Below are positions 3,124 to 44,119 of a DNA stretch of 64,000 bases, in pieces. Under the pieces are notes generated by a model. It saw only the letters and a program-made list of their open reading frames with translations. It was not told the DNA's origin and searched no databases. Each line of letters opens with the position of its first letter. Within the stretch, counting starts at the first letter, position 1. Source of the stretch: Cyanobium sp. ATX 6F1 (GTDB lineage: Bacteria > Cyanobacteriota > Cyanobacteriia > PCC-6307 > Cyanobiaceae); the NCBI RefSeq assembly GCF_024346315.1, contig NZ_JAGQCS010000002.1, forward strand, positions 310,001 through 374,000, in the 5' to 3' direction. A program made the translations under genes and the position numbers.

Positions 3124-4122
3124 TCAGCCTCCGAGGGCCTTGACCAGATTCGCGGCGTTGCCGCGCAGGGTTCTGGCGTAGGTGCCCGGTGCCGCCGCCG
3201 AATCGGGGCCCGTCTCGAGCGAATCGAACGCAATCACCTTCACCCCAAGATCGTTCGCCAGCGCCTGGAAGGATCCGCTGCCCTCCTGGGGCTCGCTGAG
3301 CAGGGCCTTGAGCTGGGTAGCCTGGGCCAGGCGCGCCACCCGCCTGAGGTCGGCCGGGGTGGGGTTCTCCTCGGGCACATTGACCACGAAGCTGGCCTTC
3401 AGCCCATAACGCTCAGCGAAGTAGGGAGCGAAGTCGTGGAAGGCCACGAAGGTCTTGCCGGCATAGGGCTTGAGCTGGGCCGCCAGGTCGGTGTTCAGAC
3501 GCTCCAGCTCGGCCGTGAAGCGGGCCGCGTTCGTGGTGAAGGTGGCCTTGCAGGCGGGCCTGGCGGCGATCAGGCCATCGCGGATGCTGGTCACCTGCTG
3601 CGCAGCCCGCAGGGGATCCAGCCAGATGTGGGGGTTGATCTCGCCGTGGTCATGGCCTTTGGCCTCGATCTGGTCCGCACCATGGTGATGGCCGCCGCCC
3701 GCCCCAGGGAGGCTCAGCGTGCTGATGCCCTGGCTGGTGTCGATCACCCGCAGGCGCGGGTTTTCAGCGCCGGCGATGAGCTTGTCGAGGAAACCCTCGA
3801 GGCCCAGTCCGTTCTTGACGAGCACATCGGCCTGGCGAAGGCGGGCCAGATCGGTGGGCGTGGCCTGGAAATCATGGGGGCCCACTTTGGTGGGGATCAG
3901 GGCGTTCACGGTGGCACAGTCGCCCGCCACAGCCCGGGTGAATTCGGTGATCGGCAGGAAGGTGGTGACCACGGCCAGGGGCTTCTCTGTTTTTGAGGCG
4001 GTGGCCTTGGGCTGACATCCCGCCAGCAGGCTGGCCGTCGCCAGCAGCCCCGCGATGAACCGGGCGCGAGCACGGATCCAGGCCTGGGGCGGCGCTTGCG
4101 GTGTGCGGCTCAGGTGGGGCAT
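3124..4122 (-). CDS. znuA: zinc ABC transporter substrate-binding lipoprotein ZnuA
   Basis: A 332-residue cluster A-I solute-binding protein. A basic N-terminus and hydrophobic segment end in the lipobox LLAGC, so it should be lipid-anchored facing the periplasm. The first metal-ligand His lies in VGPHDFQATP. A His/Asp-rich loop with GGGHHHGAD and GHDHG follows, then INPHIWLDP, then HDFAPYFAERYG. The His-rich loop is the hallmark of ZnuA rather than Mn-specific relatives. The ATG at 4122 is preferred over one ten codons upstream because it gives a normal signal peptide. The Zur-box palindrome at 4171-4185 lies 49 bp before this start. Confidence 0.94.
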   Translation of the reverse strand: MPHLSRTPQAPPQAWIRARARFIAGLLATASLLAGCQPKATASKTEKPLAVVTTFLPITEFTRAVAGDCATVNALIPTKVGPHDFQATPTDLARLRQADVLVKNGLGLEGFLDKLIAGAENPRLRVIDTSQGISTLSLPGAGGGHHHGADQIEAKGHDHGEINPHIWLDPLRAAQQVTSIRDGLIAARPACKATFTTNAARFTAELERLNTDLAAQLKPYAGKTFVAFHDFAPYFAERYGLKASFVVNVPEENPTPADLRRVARLAQATQLKALLSEPQEGSGSFQALANDLGVKVIAFDSLETGPDSAAAPGTYARTLRGNAANLVKALGG

Positions 4123-4170
4123 GACGGCCTGACGTTTCGGCAGTGCGCCCAACCGGAAGCCAGCGCTGTT

Positions 4171-4185
4171 TGAGAACGATACTCA
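4171..4185. promoter_or_regulatory. putative Zur operator between znuA and zur
   Basis: TGAGAACGATACTCA is an imperfect palindrome (TGAG..CTCA with a GAACGATAC core) in the divergent promoter region of znuACB and zur. A near-identical site lies at 4658-4670 before the porin gene. Shared sequence and placement beside a Fur-family gene support a Zur site; binding is inferred. Confidence 0.65.
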
Positions 4186-4246
4186 GTCCAGCCTGAGCCT
4201 CACGCTCCTGGGCCGCCGGTCTCACCTCGCTCCATAGGATTCCCCC

Positions 4247-4651
4247 ATGGAGGCCTCCCGTCCCGCCACCCTCAACGGCAAGCAGCAGCACCTGCTGGAG
4301 CAACTGCGCCTGGCCAGCAGCGAGCTCTCCGGGCAGGACCTCCACGCCCAACTGCGCAGCACTCCGCAGTCCATGGGCCTGGCCACGGTCTACCGGCACC
4401 TGCGCCAGCTGCAGCAACAGGGCCTCGTGCGCTGCCGCCACCTGCCCAGCGGCGAGGCCCTGTTCGCCCCCACCGAACGCGACGAGCACCATCTCACCTG
4501 CGTCGACTGCGGCCGCACCGTGCCCTTGCCCGCCTGCCCGATGCACGGCGACGATCTCAGCCCCCAGCAGCTGGACGGCTTCCAACTGCTGTTCCACACC
4601 CTGGAGTTTTTTGGGCTCTGCCCGCTCTGCCAGGAACGCCAGCCGGGCTGA
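4247..4651 (+). CDS. zur: zinc uptake regulator Zur (Fur family)
   Basis: A 134-residue Fur-superfamily repressor. The winged-helix part has the recognition-helix region MGLATVYRHLRQLQQQGLV. The dimerisation part holds HHLTCVDCGR and a C-terminal CPLCQE, which give the four Cys of the structural zinc site. It is divergent from znuACB with a palindrome in the shared spacer, and a matching palindrome follows immediately downstream before a porin. This context separates it from the second Fur-family gene of the window (13915-14388), which lies beside iron genes. With zinc bound it would repress uptake; some cyanobacterial Zur proteins also activate genes. Confidence 0.9.
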   Translation: MEASRPATLNGKQQHLLEQLRLASSELSGQDLHAQLRSTPQSMGLATVYRHLRQLQQQGLVRCRHLPSGEALFAPTERDEHHLTCVDCGRTVPLPACPMHGDDLSPQQLDGFQLLFHTLEFFGLCPLCQERQPG

Positions 4652-28530: not shown

Positions 28531-31500
28531 CTAGGGCTGTCCCACCGTGAGCACCACCGAAGCACGGCCGCCGTTGGCGGTGGGGACAGAGAGACGTACA
28601 TCCAGAGGCAGCGACACCCGCCTCAGATCACTGATTGAAATCGTCGCGCTTCGGGGCACATAGCTCACCCCTGGGGGTAAGGGAGCGCCATCGGCCAGTG
28701 TGAGGCGACCCTGAATCAGCGCCGGCTGCGGTCCCAGCTTCGCCAGAATGTGGGCGGGAATTCTGTAACTGAGCGGCACGTTCAACCCGGTGGGTTTGGC
28801 CTGATTGAGGGCGGCCTGCACATTGATCGGCTGCAGGATCGGCTTGCTATCGAGCGCACTGCCGGCGCTGCCTGGCACGCGGATCGGCGCGAGCGTTGGG
28901 GCCGGTGTCAGCTGGGGGGCGGCTGTCGGCGCTGGTGTCGGCTGCGCCTGGGGCACCCGGATCGGAGCGAGCGTTGGGGCCGGTGTCAGCTGGGGAGCGG
29001 CCGTCGGCGCCGGCGTCGGCTGCGCCTGCGGCACCCGGATCGGAGCCAGCGTTGGCGCTGGCGTCAGCTGGGGGGCGGCTGTCGGCGCTGGTGTCGGCTG
29101 CGCCTGAGGCACCCGGATCGGTGCCAGCGTTGGGGCCGGTGTCAGCTGGGGGGCGGCTGTCGGCGCTGGTGTCGGCTGCGCCTGGGGCACCCGGATCGGT
29201 GCCAGCGTTGGGGCCGGTGTCAGCTGGGGAGCGGCCGTCGGCGCCGGCGTCGGCTGCGCCTGCGGCACCCGGATCGGAGCCAGCGTTGGCGCTGGCGTCA
29301 GCTGGGGGGCCGCCGTCGGCGCTGGTGTCGGCTGCGCCTGGGGCACCCGGATCGGAGCGAGCGTTGGGACCGGTTTCAGCTGAGGCGAGGCCGTCGGTGC
29401 CGCCGTGGGCTGGGCCTGCGGCACGCGGATCGGTGCCAGCGTTGGGGCCGGTGTCAGCTGGGGGGCGGCTGTCGGTGCTGGTGTCGGCTGCGCCTGGGGC
29501 ACCCGGATCGGAGCCAGCGTTGGGGCCGGGGTCAGCTGGGGGGCGGCTGTCGGCGCTGGTGTCGGCTGCGCCTGAGGCACCCGGATCGGCGCGAGCGTTG
29601 GCGCTGGTGTCAGCTGGGGGGCGGCTGTCGGCGCTGGTGTCGGCTGCGCCTGGGGCACCCGGATCGGAGCCAGCGTTGGGGCCGTTGGCAGCTTGGGAGC
29701 AGCCGTCGGGGCGGACGTTCGTTGCGGCGCCGCCGTCGGAGGCAGAGTCGGGGCGGCCGTCGGCGTGGCGACCATCCGCGGCGGCACCGCGGTCGGCTGG
29801 AGCTGACCATTGGGCGCCAGGGTCGGGACGGCCGTCGGGGCCGCCGTTCGCTGCGGCGCCGCCGTCGGAGGCAGGGTCGGTGCGGCCGTCGGGGTGATGA
29901 CCGTCCGCGGCGGCACCGCGGTCGGCTGGAGCTGACCATTGGGCGCCAGGGTCGGCGCGGCCGTCGGGGCCGCCGTTCGCTGCGGCGCCGCCGTTGGAGG
30001 CAGGGTCGGTGCGGCCGTCGGGGTGATGACCGTCCGCGGCGGCACCGCGGTCGGCTGGAGCTGACCATTGGGCGCCAGGGTCGGCACCGCCGTCGGGGCG
30101 GACGTTCGCTGCGGCGCCGCCGTCGGAGGCAGAGTCGGGGCGGCCGTGGGCGTGACGACCATCCGCGGCGGCACCGCGGTCGGCTGGAGCTGACCCTTGG
30201 GCGCCAGCGTCGGGGCCGCCGTCGGGGCGGACGTTCGCTGCGGCGCCGCCGTCGGAGGCAGAGTCGGGGCGGCCGTGGGCGTGACGACCATCCGCGGCGG
30301 CACCGCGGTCGGCTGGAGCTGACCATTGGGCGCCAGGGTCGGCGCCGCCGTCGGGGCGGTCGTTCGCTGCGGCGCCGCCGTTGGAGGCAGAGTCGGGGCG
30401 GCCGTCGGCGTGATGACCGTCCGCGGCGGCACCGCGGTCGGCTGGAGCTGACCATTGGGCACCAGCGTCGGGGCCGCCGTCGGGGCGGTCGTTCGCTGCG
30501 GCGCCGCCGTTGGAGGCAGGGTCGGTGCGGCCGTCGGCGTGATGACCGACCGCGGCGGCACCGCGGTCGGCTGGAGCTGACCACTGGGCGCCAGGGTCGG
30601 CGCCGCCGTCGGGGCGGACGTTCGCTGCGGCGCCGCCGTCGGAGGCAGGGTCGGGGCGGCCGTCGGCGTGATGACCGTCCGCGGCGGCACCGCGGTCGGC
30701 TGGAGCTGACCATTGGGCGCCAGCGTCGGGGCCGCCGTCGGGGCGGTCGTCGGCGCTGGTGTCGGCTGCGCCTGAGGCACCCGGATCGGCGCCAGCGTTG
30801 GGGCCGGTGTCAGCTGGGGGGCGGCTGTCGGCGCTGGTGTCGGCTGCGCCTGGGGCACCCGGATCGGAGCCAGCGTTGGGGCCGGGGTCAGCTGGGGGGC
30901 CGCCGTCGGTGCTGGCGTCGGCTGCGCCTGGGGCACCCGGATCGGAGCCAGCGTTGGGGCCGGGGTCAGCTGGGGGGCCGCCGTCGGCGCTGGTGTCGGC
31001 TGCGCCTGGGGCACCCGGATCGGAGCGAGCGTTGGGGCTGGTGTCAGCTGGGGTGCGGCCGTCGGCGCTGGCGTCGGCTGGACTGGCGGCACGCGGATCG
31101 GTGCCAGCGTCGGGGCCGGTGTCAGCTGGGGGGCCGCCGTCGGCGCTGGCGTCGGCTGCGCCTGGGGCACCCGGATCGGAGCCAGCGTTGGGGCCGGGGT
31201 CAGCTGGGGGGCCGCCGTCGGCGCTGGTGTCGGCTGCGCCTGGGGCACCCGGATCGGAGCAAGCGTTGGCGCTGGTGTCAGCTGGGGGGCGGCTGTGGGT
31301 GCTGGTGTCGGCTGCGCCTGCGGCACCAGGATCGGTGCCAGCGTTGGCGCCGGTGTCAGCTGAGGTGCGGCTGTCGGGGCCGCCGTCGGCTGGGCTTGCG
31401 GAACGCGGATCGGCGCCAAGGTGGGTACCAAGGGGGCCGTTGGCCGTGTCCAGGTGGAGGTCGCCGAACCCTGAGGGATCGTGGCCTGACCACTCAGGGG

Positions 31501-33291
31501 GAGGACCTGTTGGAACTGCTGCTGGGTCGGAATTCCAGGCCTGGTGACCTGTTGATAAAGGGTCGGACTGACGACCTGAGTCGGCGGGTTCTTGGGTGTG
31601 GTCTGGGGATTGAAACCCGAGGCCGATGTGACGTAATACTGACCACCCACCATGTAAACAACATGGGTATCTGGCACGCCCCCCGAAGTCGTGAATTGAG
31701 GATGGCCTTGACTATCGGTGGTGAAGTGGCCTCTCCAGTAGGTCACCTGGCCTGTTACTGGATTGACGTAGCGACAGCCAGGGCATGGAGATGATCCAGC
31801 ATATGAACCATTGCTTCCATGATAATAATAGCCTTCTTTCACTTCAAATGACTGAGTGATTCCAGGGTCTGGCGGCCTTGTGAACCCAGGATTTGTCTGC
31901 CCTTGATTGATCGTAATTCCTCCAGGAATCGCCACCGTCTCAGTAACGGAAGTTCCCGGAATCGTCCTGGACCAAGCGATGACACCTGATTGCGGATCGT
32001 AGGCAGCCTTGACTCCATTGCTGCCCACAACCGACGAGCCACCAGTACCGATCGCGACCTTGAGGGGGCCGCTGCCGAACTGGTCAGTGAAATCTGGATT
32101 GGCCAGGGCAGCGGTGCTCGGCTGAATGGTGAGCGTTCCAGCTGTGATCTTTCCCGAAACCTGATCGACTTGAACACCCTCGGCGTTCATCAAGGCAGCT
32201 CCGGCCGGGAGCTGCAGTCCCAACACGTCCGACTCCAGCATCTCCTGATCAGAAGCCTGGCCTTTGGCGTTGAATGTGCGTAGCAACCGCTTGAGTGGTC
32301 CGCCGTTGGTGGCCAACCTGTGTCCTTCCTCCACCGCCTCGATGCCGTCATAGACGTAGAAGTCGGAGGCCCGGAAGGAGGGCGAGAAGAACAAGCCGTC
32401 AAATTGGCCTGCCCGGGCACCGGCGGTGCCGATCACGAACCGCTCCAGGTCGTAGGAGGCCTGGAGGGCAAGCGAAGCCGATTGCGGTGAGGGTTGGCCG
32501 CTGATCTGGGCAAAGCCAAAGCCCGTGGGCAGGCCCGCACCTGCGGTGAAGGGATTAATCGGTAGGCCCGTGGTGCCGATCCAGAGGGTGCCCTCGGGTT
32601 CAATGCCGTTGTAGGGGAGATTCACCCCGTCCGTGCCGGTGCTGGCCGATCGGAAACCGCGGCTGAAGAGGCTGGCGCTGGGAGCGATGGTCACCGAGGG
32701 GGCCACCAGGCCGATGCCACCCCCGTTGGTGGATTCGATCCGCCCTTCAACAAGGATCGGACCATCTCCGTTGCTCATCTGAATGCTGATCAGCGGCGCA
32801 TTCAATCCATTGCCGTAACTGACTCCAGCCATGAACTTGTCCAGGCTGTCCGGGAGCAGCGAACCGGTGCTCAGCAGAAGGCTCGGTACCGAGATCAACG
32901 CCGTGCGACCCACGCTGATGCCTTGATTGTTGAGCAGAACCAGTGGGTTGGTGGCCCGCAGGATGCCGTTGATCTGGCTGGCTATTCCTCCGGAGCGCAC
33001 GTAGTTGAGCACCGCTCCGCCATTGCGGAAGTCGACGGTGTCGCCCTGGCCAATGTTGAACGTGCCCCAGCTGAAGACGGCCCGCCCTGGGGTGGTGACG
33101 GTCAAGGTGCGGCCCGTCTGATTCACCGTTCCGGCAGCTCCTCGCTCCTGCAATGCACCCGTGGGCAATTGCTGGGCTGTGGCCGCCTGCAGCAGCGGAT
33201 TGCCCTGGGCCAGGGCGAGCAGAATCAGGCCAGATTTCGAGTGCCGCAGCAGCAGCTGTCTCAGGTTGGCAGAGGAGGTGGGATTTCTCAT
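28531..33291 (-). CDS. TpsA-type exoprotein with mucin-like Pro/Thr/Ala repeats
   Basis: A 1586-residue two-partner-secretion exoprotein. After a signal peptide (GLILLALAQGNPLLQAATAQ) comes a TPS/FHA-type domain at about 45-260, with SWGTFNIGQGDTVDF, NYVRSGGIASQINGIL and LVLLNNQGISVG. Residues 260-620 are a further beta-rich region with a CPGC motif. Residues about 624-1470 are repeats in three blocks: 26-residue units, eight 43-residue units, then 26-residue units again, all Pro/Thr/Ala-rich. A 115-residue beta-like C-terminal domain (LSYRIPAHILAKLGPQP) closes it. It lies 18 bp after tpsB, its expected outer-membrane pore, and 5 bp before a GT2 gene. Confidence 0.88.
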   Translation of the reverse strand: MRNPTSSANLRQLLLRHSKSGLILLALAQGNPLLQAATAQQLPTGALQERGAAGTVNQTGRTLTVTTPGRAVFSWGTFNIGQGDTVDFRNGGAVLNYVRSGGIASQINGILRATNPLVLLNNQGISVGRTALISVPSLLLSTGSLLPDSLDKFMAGVSYGNGLNAPLISIQMSNGDGPILVEGRIESTNGGGIGLVAPSVTIAPSASLFSRGFRSASTGTDGVNLPYNGIEPEGTLWIGTTGLPINPFTAGAGLPTGFGFAQISGQPSPQSASLALQASYDLERFVIGTAGARAGQFDGLFFSPSFRASDFYVYDGIEAVEEGHRLATNGGPLKRLLRTFNAKGQASDQEMLESDVLGLQLPAGAALMNAEGVQVDQVSGKITAGTLTIQPSTAALANPDFTDQFGSGPLKVAIGTGGSSVVGSNGVKAAYDPQSGVIAWSRTIPGTSVTETVAIPGGITINQGQTNPGFTRPPDPGITQSFEVKEGYYYHGSNGSYAGSSPCPGCRYVNPVTGQVTYWRGHFTTDSQGHPQFTTSGGVPDTHVVYMVGGQYYVTSASGFNPQTTPKNPPTQVVSPTLYQQVTRPGIPTQQQFQQVLPLSGQATIPQGSATSTWTRPTAPLVPTLAPIRVPQAQPTAAPTAAPQLTPAPTLAPILVPQAQPTPAPTAAPQLTPAPTLAPIRVPQAQPTPAPTAAPQLTPAPTLAPIRVPQAQPTPAPTAAPQLTPAPTLAPIRVPPVQPTPAPTAAPQLTPAPTLAPIRVPQAQPTPAPTAAPQLTPAPTLAPIRVPQAQPTPAPTAAPQLTPAPTLAPIRVPQAQPTPAPTAAPQLTPAPTLAPIRVPQAQPTPAPTTAPTAAPTLAPNGQLQPTAVPPRTVITPTAAPTLPPTAAPQRTSAPTAAPTLAPSGQLQPTAVPPRSVITPTAAPTLPPTAAPQRTTAPTAAPTLVPNGQLQPTAVPPRTVITPTAAPTLPPTAAPQRTTAPTAAPTLAPNGQLQPTAVPPRMVVTPTAAPTLPPTAAPQRTSAPTAAPTLAPKGQLQPTAVPPRMVVTPTAAPTLPPTAAPQRTSAPTAVPTLAPNGQLQPTAVPPRTVITPTAAPTLPPTAAPQRTAAPTAAPTLAPNGQLQPTAVPPRTVITPTAAPTLPPTAAPQRTAAPTAVPTLAPNGQLQPTAVPPRMVATPTAAPTLPPTAAPQRTSAPTAAPKLPTAPTLAPIRVPQAQPTPAPTAAPQLTPAPTLAPIRVPQAQPTPAPTAAPQLTPAPTLAPIRVPQAQPTPAPTAAPQLTPAPTLAPIRVPQAQPTAAPTASPQLKPVPTLAPIRVPQAQPTPAPTAAPQLTPAPTLAPIRVPQAQPTPAPTAAPQLTPAPTLAPIRVPQAQPTPAPTAAPQLTPAPTLAPIRVPQAQPTPAPTAAPQLTPAPTLAPIRVPQAQPTPAPTAAPQLTPAPTLAPIRVPQAQPTPAPTAAPQLTPAPTLAPIRVPGSAGSALDSKPILQPINVQAALNQAKPTGLNVPLSYRIPAHILAKLGPQPALIQGRLTLADGAPLPPGVSYVPRSATISISDLRRVSLPLDVRLSVPTANGGRASVVLTVGQP
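28879..29690. repeat. tandem 78 bp repeats, distal block of tpsA
   Basis: About ten and a half copies of a 78 bp unit encode 26-residue units with core APIRVPQAQPTPAPTAAP. One unit near 29365-29440 is divergent (PTASPQLKPVP). Copies differ mainly at synonymous positions. Confidence 0.9.
29690..30745. repeat. tandem 129 bp repeats, central block of tpsA
   Basis: Eight copies of a 129 bp unit encode 43-residue units with the core LAPNGQLQPTAVPPR and LPPTAAPQRT. Phase is constant; the marker CGCGGCGGCACCGCGGTCGG recurs every 129 bp. Substitutions at the N/S/K and T/S/M positions distinguish units. Confidence 0.9.
30745..31422. repeat. tandem 78 bp repeats, proximal block of tpsA
   Basis: Nine copies of the same 26-residue unit as the distal block (eight full, the last truncated into the 43-residue block). 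Variants include APILVP and RVPPVQ. The identical unit on both sides of the 129 bp block gives an A-B-A design. Confidence 0.9.
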
Positions 33292-39895: not shown

Positions 39896-40510
39896 ATGCT
39901 GCACCGGGTTCGGCATGAACTGCTCAGAGCCGCGCCGCTGGCGCTGGTGATCGGTGGCGTGATCGGCGCCGGGCTCACCCGCGGGCTGATGGAGCCCCTG
40001 CGCCAGGGCAGCACCTTCGCCCTGGAAACCACCAGCTTCGTCACCGCCCAGATCTTCTCACCGCTGGTGGTGAACCTGGTCTGGATCGGCTGCTGCGTTC
40101 CGGCCAGGGTGGAACTGGCCAGCCGGATTCAGGCCAGGCCAGGCGCCCACATCCTCGGGCCTCGCCTGGCCACGGCGATGCTGGCGGCCCTGCTGCTGCT
40201 TCCCTATTTCATCCTGGCTGCGTTCACCGCCAGCGTGCTCGCTTCCCCCCGGCCCGATCTCACCGAGCAACTGCCCCTGTTCCTCGGATCGCTGACTCCA
40301 TGGGTGGTGAGCAGCGCCGTGCTGCGCACCCTGCTGATGGCGGCGGCATCGGCCAGCCTCTGCCACATCATCGGCAAACGCTGCCGCCAGCATCCGGAGG
40401 AACTGGCCGCCCTGATCAGCACATCGATCGTGAACTGCGCTCTTTCGGTGGTGTTGCTGGAGGTGTTCTGGCTCGCCGTCGTTCCTCCCAGCTTCAACGG
40501 AAGGCCATGA
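39896..40510 (+). CDS. divergent MlaE-like permease
   Basis: A 204-residue membrane protein with about five helices. It lies directly before and overlaps (ATGA) an MCE-domain gene, the arrangement of MlaE and MlaD. The central TTSFVTAQIFSPLVVNLVWI region, then PARVELASRIQARPG and PRLATAMLAALLLLPYFI, resemble the MlaE core (ELGPVLTALLVAGR...RVLAGVIMLPLL) but with low identity. MlaE is usually about 250 residues, so this one is shorter and divergent. It would pass lipids across the inner membrane with an ATPase that is not encoded here. Confidence 0.6.
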   Translation: MLHRVRHELLRAAPLALVIGGVIGAGLTRGLMEPLRQGSTFALETTSFVTAQIFSPLVVNLVWIGCCVPARVELASRIQARPGAHILGPRLATAMLAALLLLPYFILAAFTASVLASPRPDLTEQLPLFLGSLTPWVVSSAVLRTLLMAAASASLCHIIGKRCRQHPEELAALISTSIVNCALSVVLLEVFWLAVVPPSFNGRP

Positions 40511-41412
40511 ACGAACCCCGTCCGACTTCAAGGCCCGCCTGGCTGCCGCGCTGGTCGGTGGAGGCGGTGGGCACGGGTCTGAGCTGGGCGGTGCCGGTTG
40601 GCGCCCTGCTGCTGGGTGTCTGGATGCTGAACGCCACCTGGCAGCAGCAGAGCTGGGTGGCCCGCAGTTTTGCCGTGCGTTTTCGCACCACCGATGCCAG
40701 CGGCATCTGGCCGGGCGTGAACGTCACTCTCTCCGGCTTCCGGGTGGGGCGGGTGGAGAAGGTGACGTTGGGCATGGACGGGAAGGTGGCGGTGGATCTG
40801 CGTATCGCCGAGACGTACCGCCGCCTGATCGGTCCTGCCAGCCGTGCCGAGCGTTACCAGGAGGGGCTGATCGGCGCCAGCCAGATCGCCCTCACCCCGG
40901 ATGTACTGCCGCCTGGGAAGGAACCACCCCGCAGCGGTCTGCTGATTCCTTTTGAGCAGGGGCCCGACCTCGCCCAGCTGCTCGAAGAGATCGCCGCCAC
41001 CCGGCTCAAGCTCAACCGCACCCTGGAGGGCACGGCCTCGGTCGCCGAGCGCGATGTGCCCCGGGCGATCAACAGTTTCCAGTCAACGATGCAGGACCTC
41101 AGGCGTCTCAGCAGCCGTCTGGAGCTGGAAACCGGCCGTACCGCCGCCACCACCCGTCAGACGCTGCAGGTGTACGAAGGCACCGCCCAACGGATCGACA
41201 ACACCGGCGCTGCCGCCCGCAAGGCCACCGAAGAAGCTCTGGCGCTGATGCGTGAGGCCCACCCGCCACTGGTGGACACCCTGCGCGAGGTGAGAGCCCT
41301 GTCCCGTCGCCTCAATCTGCTGCTGGAGTCGTTCGGGGTGAAGGATGAATCTCCGCAGCTCTCGCCATCCGGACCCCGTTCAGGTGGGAGCGCCGGTGGT
41401 GGGAAAGAATGA
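40507..41412 (+). CDS. MCE/MlaD-family lipid-transport substrate-binding protein
   Basis: A 301-residue protein. The ATG at 40507 overlaps the upstream stop, and an N-terminal transmembrane segment follows (VGALLLGVWMLNATWQ). The MCE domain at about 50-130 begins SFAVRFRTTDASGIWPGVNV and continues GFRVGRVEKVTLGMDGK. A long helical region at about 150-275 is the coiled-coil stem of MlaD-like proteins. The 3' 241 bp are duplicated, with a stop codon inside, at 43870-44110. It likely carries lipids between the membranes. Confidence 0.85.
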   Translation: MNEPRPTSRPAWLPRWSVEAVGTGLSWAVPVGALLLGVWMLNATWQQQSWVARSFAVRFRTTDASGIWPGVNVTLSGFRVGRVEKVTLGMDGKVAVDLRIAETYRRLIGPASRAERYQEGLIGASQIALTPDVLPPGKEPPRSGLLIPFEQGPDLAQLLEEIAATRLKLNRTLEGTASVAERDVPRAINSFQSTMQDLRRLSSRLELETGRTAATTRQTLQVYEGTAQRIDNTGAAARKATEEALALMREAHPPLVDTLREVRALSRRLNLLLESFGVKDESPQLSPSGPRSGGSAGGGKE

Positions 41413-41416
41413 GCTC
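41172..41416. repeat. left copy of a 245 bp direct repeat (MCE 3' end)
   Basis: Aligned with 43870-44114 (offset 2698), about 87 percent of bases match by eye. It spans the end of the MCE gene and TGAGCTC after it. The two copies bracket 2.45 kb of mixed gene debris. Confidence 0.8.
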
Positions 41417-42085: not shown

Positions 42086-42337
42086 ATGGCCATCAGCAAG
42101 GGACCACCCCTGTCGCCCAAAGACGGGTGGCTCAGCGACGGCCGCCAGGTGCTGCGCTTTCGCCCAACCCGCTGGCGGCGCACCTACCAACGGCTGGAGA
42201 TCACCAAGGGAGAGTTACTCCCCGGCGAACCGGTGCCGTTGCTCAAGAACCGCCGGGAGATCAGCCGGGATGACGCCCTCAAGCTGTGGGCCGCCAAGCG
42301 CCAGGAGGGCTGGAGCCCCTGCGAGCCCCAGTGGTGA
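42086..42337 (+). CDS. DUF1651-family protein
   Basis: An 83-residue protein. GWLSDGRQVLRFRPTRWRRT, then PLLKNRREISRDDALKLW and the C-terminal KRQEGWSPCEPQW match the cyanobacterial DUF1651 family, whose hallmark is the terminal GWxPCxPQW. The function is unknown. It lies 6 bp after the Cys-rich gene, and the pair may be one transcript ending at the hairpin 42454-42480. Confidence 0.75.
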   Translation: MAISKGPPLSPKDGWLSDGRQVLRFRPTRWRRTYQRLEITKGELLPGEPVPLLKNRREISRDDALKLWAAKRQEGWSPCEPQW

Positions 42338-42453
42338 TGGGGTGGGGCCCAGGAGTGAGGTTTGCCGTACTGACACCACGGCCAAACGGATCTATCAATG
42401 AATCAGAGGCCTCGACCAGGGCGGTTCCAACCAGTTCCCTGCAACCGGCCCGA

Positions 42454-42480
42454 GGGCGCCCGACACGGGGCGCCCTTCTC
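42454..42480 (+). terminator. GC-rich hairpin before the toxin-antitoxin pair
   Basis: GGGCGCCC (42454-42461) and GGGCGCCC (42468-42475), self-complementary, form an 8 bp stem with loop GACACG, followed by TTCTCATT. This is a plausible intrinsic terminator after the DUF1651 gene; 42338-42570 contains nothing else recognised. Confidence 0.5.
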
Positions 42481-42570
42481 ATTGGAACTGAGTTCGGCCC
42501 TGACAAGGCCACGAGTAGACGTGCCGAGCTGAGCTGTCTCTCTTAGGCTGACCACGGCTTCTGAGTTGCC

Positions 42571-42858
42571 ATGCGCCTCGACGACCTGCTGGCCCAGGCT
42601 CCAAGGATCAGGGAGATCGCGACTGCGCACGGCGCAAGCAATGTGGCGGCGTTTGGCTCGGTGGCCCGTGATCAAGCTGGAGCCGACAGTGACCTGGATC
42701 TCCTGGTGGATCTGCCTGCACGCACGGGTCTGCTCGAGCGCATCGCCCTGAAGTTGGCTTTGGAAGACACGTTGCACTGCCGCGTGGATTTGATTCGCCG
42801 ACGCAATCTCAAGCCAGCCGTCCTGGCTTCTGCCGAGCGGGACGCCATTCCCCTGTGA
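42571..42858 (+). CDS. mntA: MntA-like nucleotidyltransferase antitoxin
   Basis: A 95-residue minimal nucleotidyltransferase. The motif GSVARDQAGADSDLD is GSx10DxD, the active site of MNT antitoxins, followed by LLVDLP and VDLIRRRNL with the third acidic residue. In the Shewanella HepT/MntA pair MntA adds AMP to a Tyr of the toxin. The stop overlaps the GTG of the HEPN gene as GTGA, so the two are translated together. Confidence 0.88.
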   Translation: MRLDDLLAQAPRIREIATAHGASNVAAFGSVARDQAGADSDLDLLVDLPARTGLLERIALKLALEDTLHCRVDLIRRRNLKPAVLASAERDAIPL

Positions 42859-43190
42859 TCGAGCCGAGGGACCGCGATGCCCTGGGCGACATTCTGACCG
42901 CGATCCGGCGGGTTCAAGGATTCCCCATCCCCGATCGAGAGACGTTTCTGGCCAGCGACCTTTTACAGGACGCGGTGGTGCGCAATCTTGAGATCATTGG
43001 AGAAGCCACAAAGCGCCTGAGCGACTCCTGCCGTCAGAACCACCCGCAGATTCCCTGGCGGGAGATGGCGGGGATGCGGGATGTGCTGATCCATGCCTAC
43101 GACCGCGTGGACCTCGAAGAAGTGTGGATCACGTTGAGCGAGCAATTGCCAGCGCTGCTGGAGCAGATCGAGCCTGTGCTCAGCCTTTGA
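42855..43190 (+). CDS. hepT: HepT-like HEPN ribonuclease toxin (DUF86)
   Basis: A 111-residue HEPN protein with four helices. The active motif RDVLIHAY is Rx4HxY, matching HepT toxins in which the Tyr is AMPylated by MntA. NLEIIGEATKRLS and IPWREMAGMRDVLIHAYD are the DUF86 signatures. The start is GTG, overlapping mntA. The catalytic Arg and His are intact, so the toxin should be functional. Its stop overlaps a TTG that opens the thermonuclease remnant. Confidence 0.88.
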   Translation: MIEPRDRDALGDILTAIRRVQGFPIPDRETFLASDLLQDAVVRNLEIIGEATKRLSDSCRQNHPQIPWREMAGMRDVLIHAYDRVDLEEVWITLSEQLPALLEQIEPVLSL

Positions 43191-43538
43191 ACCGGTGGCT
43201 GCTGATCGGTGCCGCTGCGTTCATCGCTGGGTGGGGCAACGTTTTCTCCGCCGACACCGCGCAGGCCAACCAACAGGCTTCCGCCACGGTGCGGCCATGC
43301 TGCACGCGGATGGTGTCGCCGTCACCGATCGAGAGCACCGTGGCCGAGGTGATCAGTGGTGTGAACATCAACCTGGCCCTGGTGGAAGACGGCATGGCCT
43401 TTGCCAACCGGAAATACCTGGGCCAGTGCAACGCCAAGGAGTATCTGGAGGCCGAGGACCGGGCTTCCCGCAGCCGCTATGGCGTGTGGCAGGTGCCCGG
43501 CGGCATCACCCGCCCCTGGGACTTCCGCCGTGGCCGAA
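43187..43538 (+). pseudogene. broken thermonuclease (SNase-like) gene with an inverted segment
   Basis: The frame begins with TTG and a signal-like segment (WLLIGAAAFIAGWGNVFSA). It ends in the SNase C-terminal core: VNINLALVEDGMAF, RKYLGQCNAKEYLEAED, YGVWQVPGGITRPWDF. The catalytic N-terminal motif ATVLSIGDGDTIRV is absent from this frame but is present on the minus strand at 43283-43344, between 10 bp inverted repeats. Undoing the inversion restores ATVLSIGDGDTIRVQHGRTV in frame. About 45-50 residues of the middle, with catalytic Arg and Glu, are also missing. Confidence 0.75.
43283..43344. repeat. inverted repeats flanking a 42 bp inverted segment in the SNase remnant
   Basis: GCCACGGTGC (43283-43292) and GCACCGTGGC (43335-43344) are perfect inverses. 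The 42 bases between them read as SNase sequence only on the minus strand, so the segment has been flipped relative to the gene. Either orientation keeps the frame open. Confidence 0.8.
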
Positions 43539-43818
43539 CAGCAGGGCGATCAGCAAGAACGACAGAGTCGATTCCTGGTGGCTGGAGGGTGAGGGCATCG
43601 AGGAGAAACACCATCGGCTGGCCAGAAGTGGTCGCCCCGCCAGCCAGCAGATCGTCGGTGCTGACCCCGGCGTCTTCTGCCCGGCCCAGAAACGCCACCT
43701 GAGACTGAAAGCCGTCCACCGGTCTGCGGATGGCCATCTGCAGCGCCTGCCAGGCCGTTTCGTCGCCGAACGCGGTGCGCAGCACCAGGGGCTCATCGCT
43801 TCTGGGCAAGGAATTCAT
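43477..43818 (-). pseudogene. truncated DUF6924-like gene
   Basis: The minus frame starts at ATG 43818 and encodes SDEPLVLRTAFGDETAWQAL, QMAIRRPVDGFQSQVAFLG and QPMVFLLDALTLQPPG, the N-terminal half of DUF6924-type proteins. After about residue 85 it runs antisense to the SNase remnant and loses family character. It is a 3'-truncated copy facing the broken nuclease gene. Confidence 0.6.
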
Positions 43819-43869: not shown

Positions 43870-44110
43870 ACACGAAGGCACCGCCCAACGGATCGACAAC
43901 GCCGGTGCCGCCGCCCGCAAGGCCACCTAAGAAGCTCTGGCGCTGATGCTTGAGGCCCATCCACCACTGTTGGACACCCTGCGGGAGGTGCGGGTGCTGT
44001 CGCGTCGCATCAATCGACTGCTGGAGTCGTTTGGGGTGAGCGATGAACCTCCGCAGCTCTCCCCGCCTGGAACCCGTTCAGGTGGGAGCGCCGGTGGTGG
44101 CCAAGAGTGA
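43870..44110 (+). pseudogene. duplicated 3' fragment of the MCE gene with a nonsense codon
   Basis: Encodes GTAQRIDNAGAAARKAT, then a TAA at 43927-43929, then LEAHPPLLDTLREVRVLSR and GGSAGGGQE with a stop at 44108-44110. It matches 41172-41412 of the intact gene codon for codon. It is the right end of the debris islet and abuts glcD. Confidence 0.85.
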
Positions 44111-44119
44111 GCTCAACGC

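Follow-up and report, generated by a model that had tools for sequence, protein, structure and literature searches.

A 42-nt spacer inversion between short inverted repeats in a partly deleted thermonuclease gene copy of Cyanobium sp. ATX 6F1

We find that a degenerate thermonuclease (SNase) gene in Cyanobium sp. ATX 6F1 carries a 42-nt segment in reversed orientation between two perfect 10-nt inverted repeats, and that the same gene has lost 150 nt in frame. The small inversion is real: its exact limits, the deletion, and the two repeat arms in intact relatives can all be read directly from the aligned DNA. Very probably it arose as a spacer inversion at short inverted repeats, by template switching or through a hairpin, in a degenerate paralog that had probably already undergone the 150-nt deletion. 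The event belongs to a known class of mutation and involves no new mechanism. The DNA analyzed, hereafter the window, is a 64,000-nt stretch of contig NZ_JAGQCS010000002.1 (positions 310,001 to 374,000, forward strand), and feature coordinates are those of the window.

Results

A 42-nt block is inverted exactly between two 10-nt arms

The SNase remnant lies directly downstream of genes encoding MntA-like and HepT-like proteins, and comprises the following features:

42571-42858, plus strand: MntA-like nucleotidyltransferase gene (antitoxin-type partner); PF01909, 37.4 bits
42855-43190, plus strand: HepT-like RNase gene; PF01934, 97.8 bits; with a stop codon that overlaps the inferred start of the SNase gene
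43187-43702, plus strand: SNase (thermonuclease) remnant open reading frame, with signal region, scrambled 42 nt and C-terminal half; TTG start inferred
43283-43292, plus strand: left inverted-repeat arm (arm 1), GCCACGGTGC, equal to the ATV codons of native genes
43292-43299, no strand: site where the 150-nt deletion shows in the present orientation, with GGCCAT beside arm 1
43293-43334, minus strand: inverted spacer, 42 nt, with the native SNase reading LSIGDGDTIRVQHG on the minus strand
43335-43344, plus strand: right inverted-repeat arm (arm 2), GCACCGTGGC, equal to the RTVA codons of native genes
43345-43527, plus strand: SNase C-terminal half, collinear with intact genes (90.7% identity to L014 over 43335-43527)

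The genome contains an intact paralog at C1:403 kb, and alignment to it defines the rearrangement to the base. The window is collinear with this paralog (G000:C1; L001/L014) over 42313-43292 at 93.5% identity, a match that extends through arm 1 to its final base. Beginning with the first base of arm 2, the window again follows the paralog in unchanged direction, as far as 43527. Window positions 43293-43347 match the paralog on the opposite strand only, at 50 of 55 positions, and the 42-nt spacer itself is identical at 38 of 42 positions if inverted versus 10 of 42 as it stands. Relative to its homologs, the spacer is reversed precisely between the arms, as defines an inverted-repeat spacer inversion. 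An earlier note on this DNA had described a 42-bp segment inverted between 10-bp inverted repeats, an N-terminal motif readable on the minus strand only, and a missing middle catalytic part. The arms and spacer lie exactly where it had placed them, the paralog alignment bears out the minus-strand reading, and the distance between the arms, 192 nt in the paralog versus 42 nt in the window, agrees with the loss of the middle.

A 10-nt inverted repeat is unremarkable by itself, because perfect 10-mer inverted repeats with a loop of 20-60 nt begin at 12 positions in the window (overlaps counted); the signal beyond chance is the homology to the paralog. The two arms pair as a hairpin stem in a single-strand fold, and this hairpin is no more stable than its composition would predict, with z = -0.30 and folds of equal or greater stability in 71 of 200 shuffles.

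The remnant reading frame is open

The frame that begins at TTG 43187 reads through the scrambled block without interruption, enters the C-terminal half of the SNase, and terminates at a stop at 43702. Two points go beyond the earlier note: the frame of the remnant is not closed, and the deletion and the inversion are linked. The C-terminal half resembles the Staphylococcal nuclease homologue family (PF00565), scoring 27.7 bits against a curated cut-off of 21 with a match confined to profile positions 51-106 of 107, and the minus strand of the spacer encodes an N-terminal motif of the family. The window copy differs from the family in that its middle catalytic part is missing and its N-terminal block is inverted. 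A complete, in-frame catalytic N-terminal half is absent from the window SNase, the deletion having taken 150 nt and the inversion having reversed 42 nt. Pairwise dN/dS between the C-terminal half and eight relatives (G146b, whose start pattern is unmatched, and G036 were left out) ranges from 0.14 to 0.34, values that mostly reflect history before decay and decide nothing on selection.

The arms are ordinary coding sequence in native SNase genes

In the intact same-genome paralog the two arms are ordinary coding sequence, at the ATV and RTVA codons. We compared orientation across 40 distinct SNase copies that have both pieces, drawn from 88 loci in part of the 112 matching genomes described below, after leaving out loci that lack one of the two pieces and repeats of the same DNA. 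The native orientation is found in 39 of the 40, and the single inverted copy is that of the window. Among the 39 native copies, the arm positions form a perfect 10/10 inverted match in six, including the intact paralog, and match at 8 or more of 10 positions in 26. The start-to-start distance of the arms is 201-204 nt in 36 of these copies, and 169, 67 and 64 nt in the other three. Since native copies carry complementary arms, the inverted repeat was latent in the SNase family before the event, with its arms far apart.

A DNA search of 400 genomes of the family returned matches in 112, and by eye none is inverted among the matches listed. One apparently collinear match, in G190:C2, had suggested a second inverted copy; on re-alignment it proved native. 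An IUPAC scan of genome contigs found no stretch with the inverted form, in a collection from which records of this or a very near genome are possibly absent. The earlier note had preferred a template-switch-type scar in a pseudogene to a switch, a choice supported by arms that pre-exist as coding sequence and by the near-uniform native orientation. It had also proposed looking for the inverted repeats in the ancestor, where native copies do carry them, and for related genes coding in the window's orientation, of which there are none among the relatives examined.

The gene has lost 150 nt in frame between the arms

Between the arms, the shortening from 192 to 42 nt amounts to 150 nt (50 codons) lost in frame. 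The loss took most of the catalytic part, presumably with the catalytic residues Arg35, Asp40 and Glu43 (staphylococcal numbering).

The only same-genus genome found, G001, carries a decayed copy at C4:17 kb that keeps the upstream genes and the signal region, bears a 138-nt deletion, and is in native orientation. By eye, 54 nt instead of 192 separate its arms, in agreement with the 64 nt measured between the starts of its two arms. Its deletion ends at the same right-hand base as the window deletion. Because this copy is deleted yet native, the deletion can occur without inversion.

A single deletion common to the window and the G001 copy may be argued from two sides. The shared right-hand breakpoint and the shared genus speak for it, and the site pattern in the upstream 840 nt speaks against it: there the window copy shares nine sites with G106, four with G001 and three with the same-genome copy, and the SNase of G106 is undeleted. 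This grouping with G106 leaves room for separate deletions in the window and in G001, and the inferred order of events is weaker for it.

Middle deletions of the SNase gene recur, since another and different one is present in G036:C10. That remnant (L042 5850-6020) has lost its middle with breakpoints unlike the window's, is in native orientation, and measures 67 nt from arm start to arm start.

The window locus looks like a mosaic

The genome has a second copy of the MntA-HepT-SNase segment found in the window. The MntA-like gene was duplicated along with the SNase gene, as it falls inside the interval collinear with G000:C1 (42313-43292). Local copying of the same-genome paralog is too simple an account: the upstream part of the window segment is nearest to G106 (94.8% identity, versus 93.0% to the same-genome copy). 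The C-terminal part and the downstream DNA to 43586 have G146 and the G001 copy at C4:89 kb as nearest relatives. Judged by these identities, the window locus seems to be a mosaic whose pieces differ in their nearest relatives, which would make the same-genome paralog closely related to the ancestor but not identical with it. The place in G001 orthologous to the window locus lacks the MntA-HepT-SNase segment.

The segment is flanked by direct repeats of about 243 nt derived from the 3' end of a gene encoding an MlaD-domain protein (40300-41412), whose end at 41174-41416 is repeated at 43872-44114 with 88% identity. The MntA-HepT segment nearest to that of the window is L078 2782-3449, in G106. 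There, HepT lacks about 164 nt and the downstream SNase is undeleted, the reverse of the window state. This genome also holds a further SNase remnant at C1:398 kb (L014, about 3996-4331), which is 81% identical to window 43412-43586, lacks the N-terminal half, and contains a frameshift and a stop. Elsewhere in the window, at 28874-31418, extended tandem arrays built of 78-nt and 129-nt units with 88-94% similarity encode a repeat rich in Pro, Thr and Ala; they belong to a minus-strand open reading frame (28531-33291) for a protein of 1586 aa.

Discussion

A reversed spacer between unchanged, perfect arms is the expected product of template switching and of hairpin-linked recombination alike. 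Of these two routes we infer template switching, and the simplest history would place the deletion first and the inversion second. An in-frame deletion of 150 nt would first have removed most of the catalytic part of the window SNase, leaving two naturally complementary 10-nt coding stretches 42 nt apart. Most likely, the nascent strand then changed template during replication, moving to the opposite strand inside one arm, copying the spacer there, and returning inside the other arm. Such a pair of switches would invert the spacer and leave the arms unchanged. The missing middle is linked to the inversion in that the deletion narrowed the natural 192-nt gap between the arms. If the deletion is shared with G001, the order would be the deletion, a further loss of 12 nt, and then the inversion.

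It is possible, if rather unlikely, that a single complex event during replication, with at least two template switches, produced both the deletion and the inversion. In favor of this, both changes sit in a single 62-nt block and one deletion breakpoint lies at the inverted block. Against it, the G001 copy at C4:17 kb has a deletion with the same right-hand end and no inversion, and by eye, compared with the paralog, the junction beside arm 1 has no evident microhomology of the kind that one step would use.

An assembly, amplification or sequencing chimera over a locus that is truly native is more doubtful still. Strand-displacement amplification is known to produce inverted chimeras that also carry an intervening deletion, and the inverted form is absent from every other genome examined. 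Yet the assembly is 99.98% complete in 17 contigs, and the spacer differs from the same-genome paralog at 4 of 42 positions, which excludes a rearranged read of that paralog as its source. Any artefact must also either have struck a copy already deleted or have made both changes.

We give very little credence to a functional invertible switch, or intragenic inverton, that toggles two reading frames. In its favor, the downstream frame is kept in both orientations and is stop-free in the present one until 43702, and intragenic inversions in bacteria have already been published; DNA inversions of this kind were reportedly described by Chanin and colleagues in 2024. The window resembles such invertons in that short inverted repeats flank a segment inside a gene. 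It differs in that the block is found once and in one orientation in the assembly, with the inverted form in none of the relatives examined, and in that neither orientation encodes a whole nuclease, the catalytic middle being deleted in both. Moreover, a search of this genome (G000) for serine recombinases (PF00239) gave 0 matches, with the control positive in 10 of 14 genomes. Just as improbable is an accidental invertible element, in which recurrent flipping at the close arms would alternate the N-terminus of a small secreted protein encoded 3' of the MntA-HepT pair.

Spacer inversion at short inverted repeats, following the deletion, has counterparts in well-studied systems. In coding genes of S. 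cerevisiae, the passages of PMC8604942 drawn on here describe spacer inversion by template switching at inverted repeats with arms longer than 9 bp. The likeness extends to perfect arms of about 10 nt that stay unchanged, a reversed spacer, and a position within coding sequence. As those passages have it, the yeast spacers change by 2-5 bp between strains, whereas the window spacer is 42 nt; the window case also differs in that the gene is deleted as well, the comparison runs across species, and the organism is a bacterium. In chloroplast genomes, hairpin-linked inversions of 4-50 bp are pervasive, according to the portion of a review that concerns them (PMC12371153). The window inversion shares that size range and the link to a hairpin, and differs in lying inside a (former) coding gene on a bacterial chromosome. 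Quasipalindrome mutagenesis in E. coli, as outlined in the relevant part of PMC7202029, is the laboratory counterpart of the mechanism proposed here.

Overall, the window provides a clean, polarised bacterial case in which a deletion brought two natural coding stretches near enough for spacer inversion, and the intact paralog and the sister-species copy display the likely steps. It also illustrates that an inverted block need not close the frame of a gene remnant, which may then enter annotation as a normal short SNase protein.
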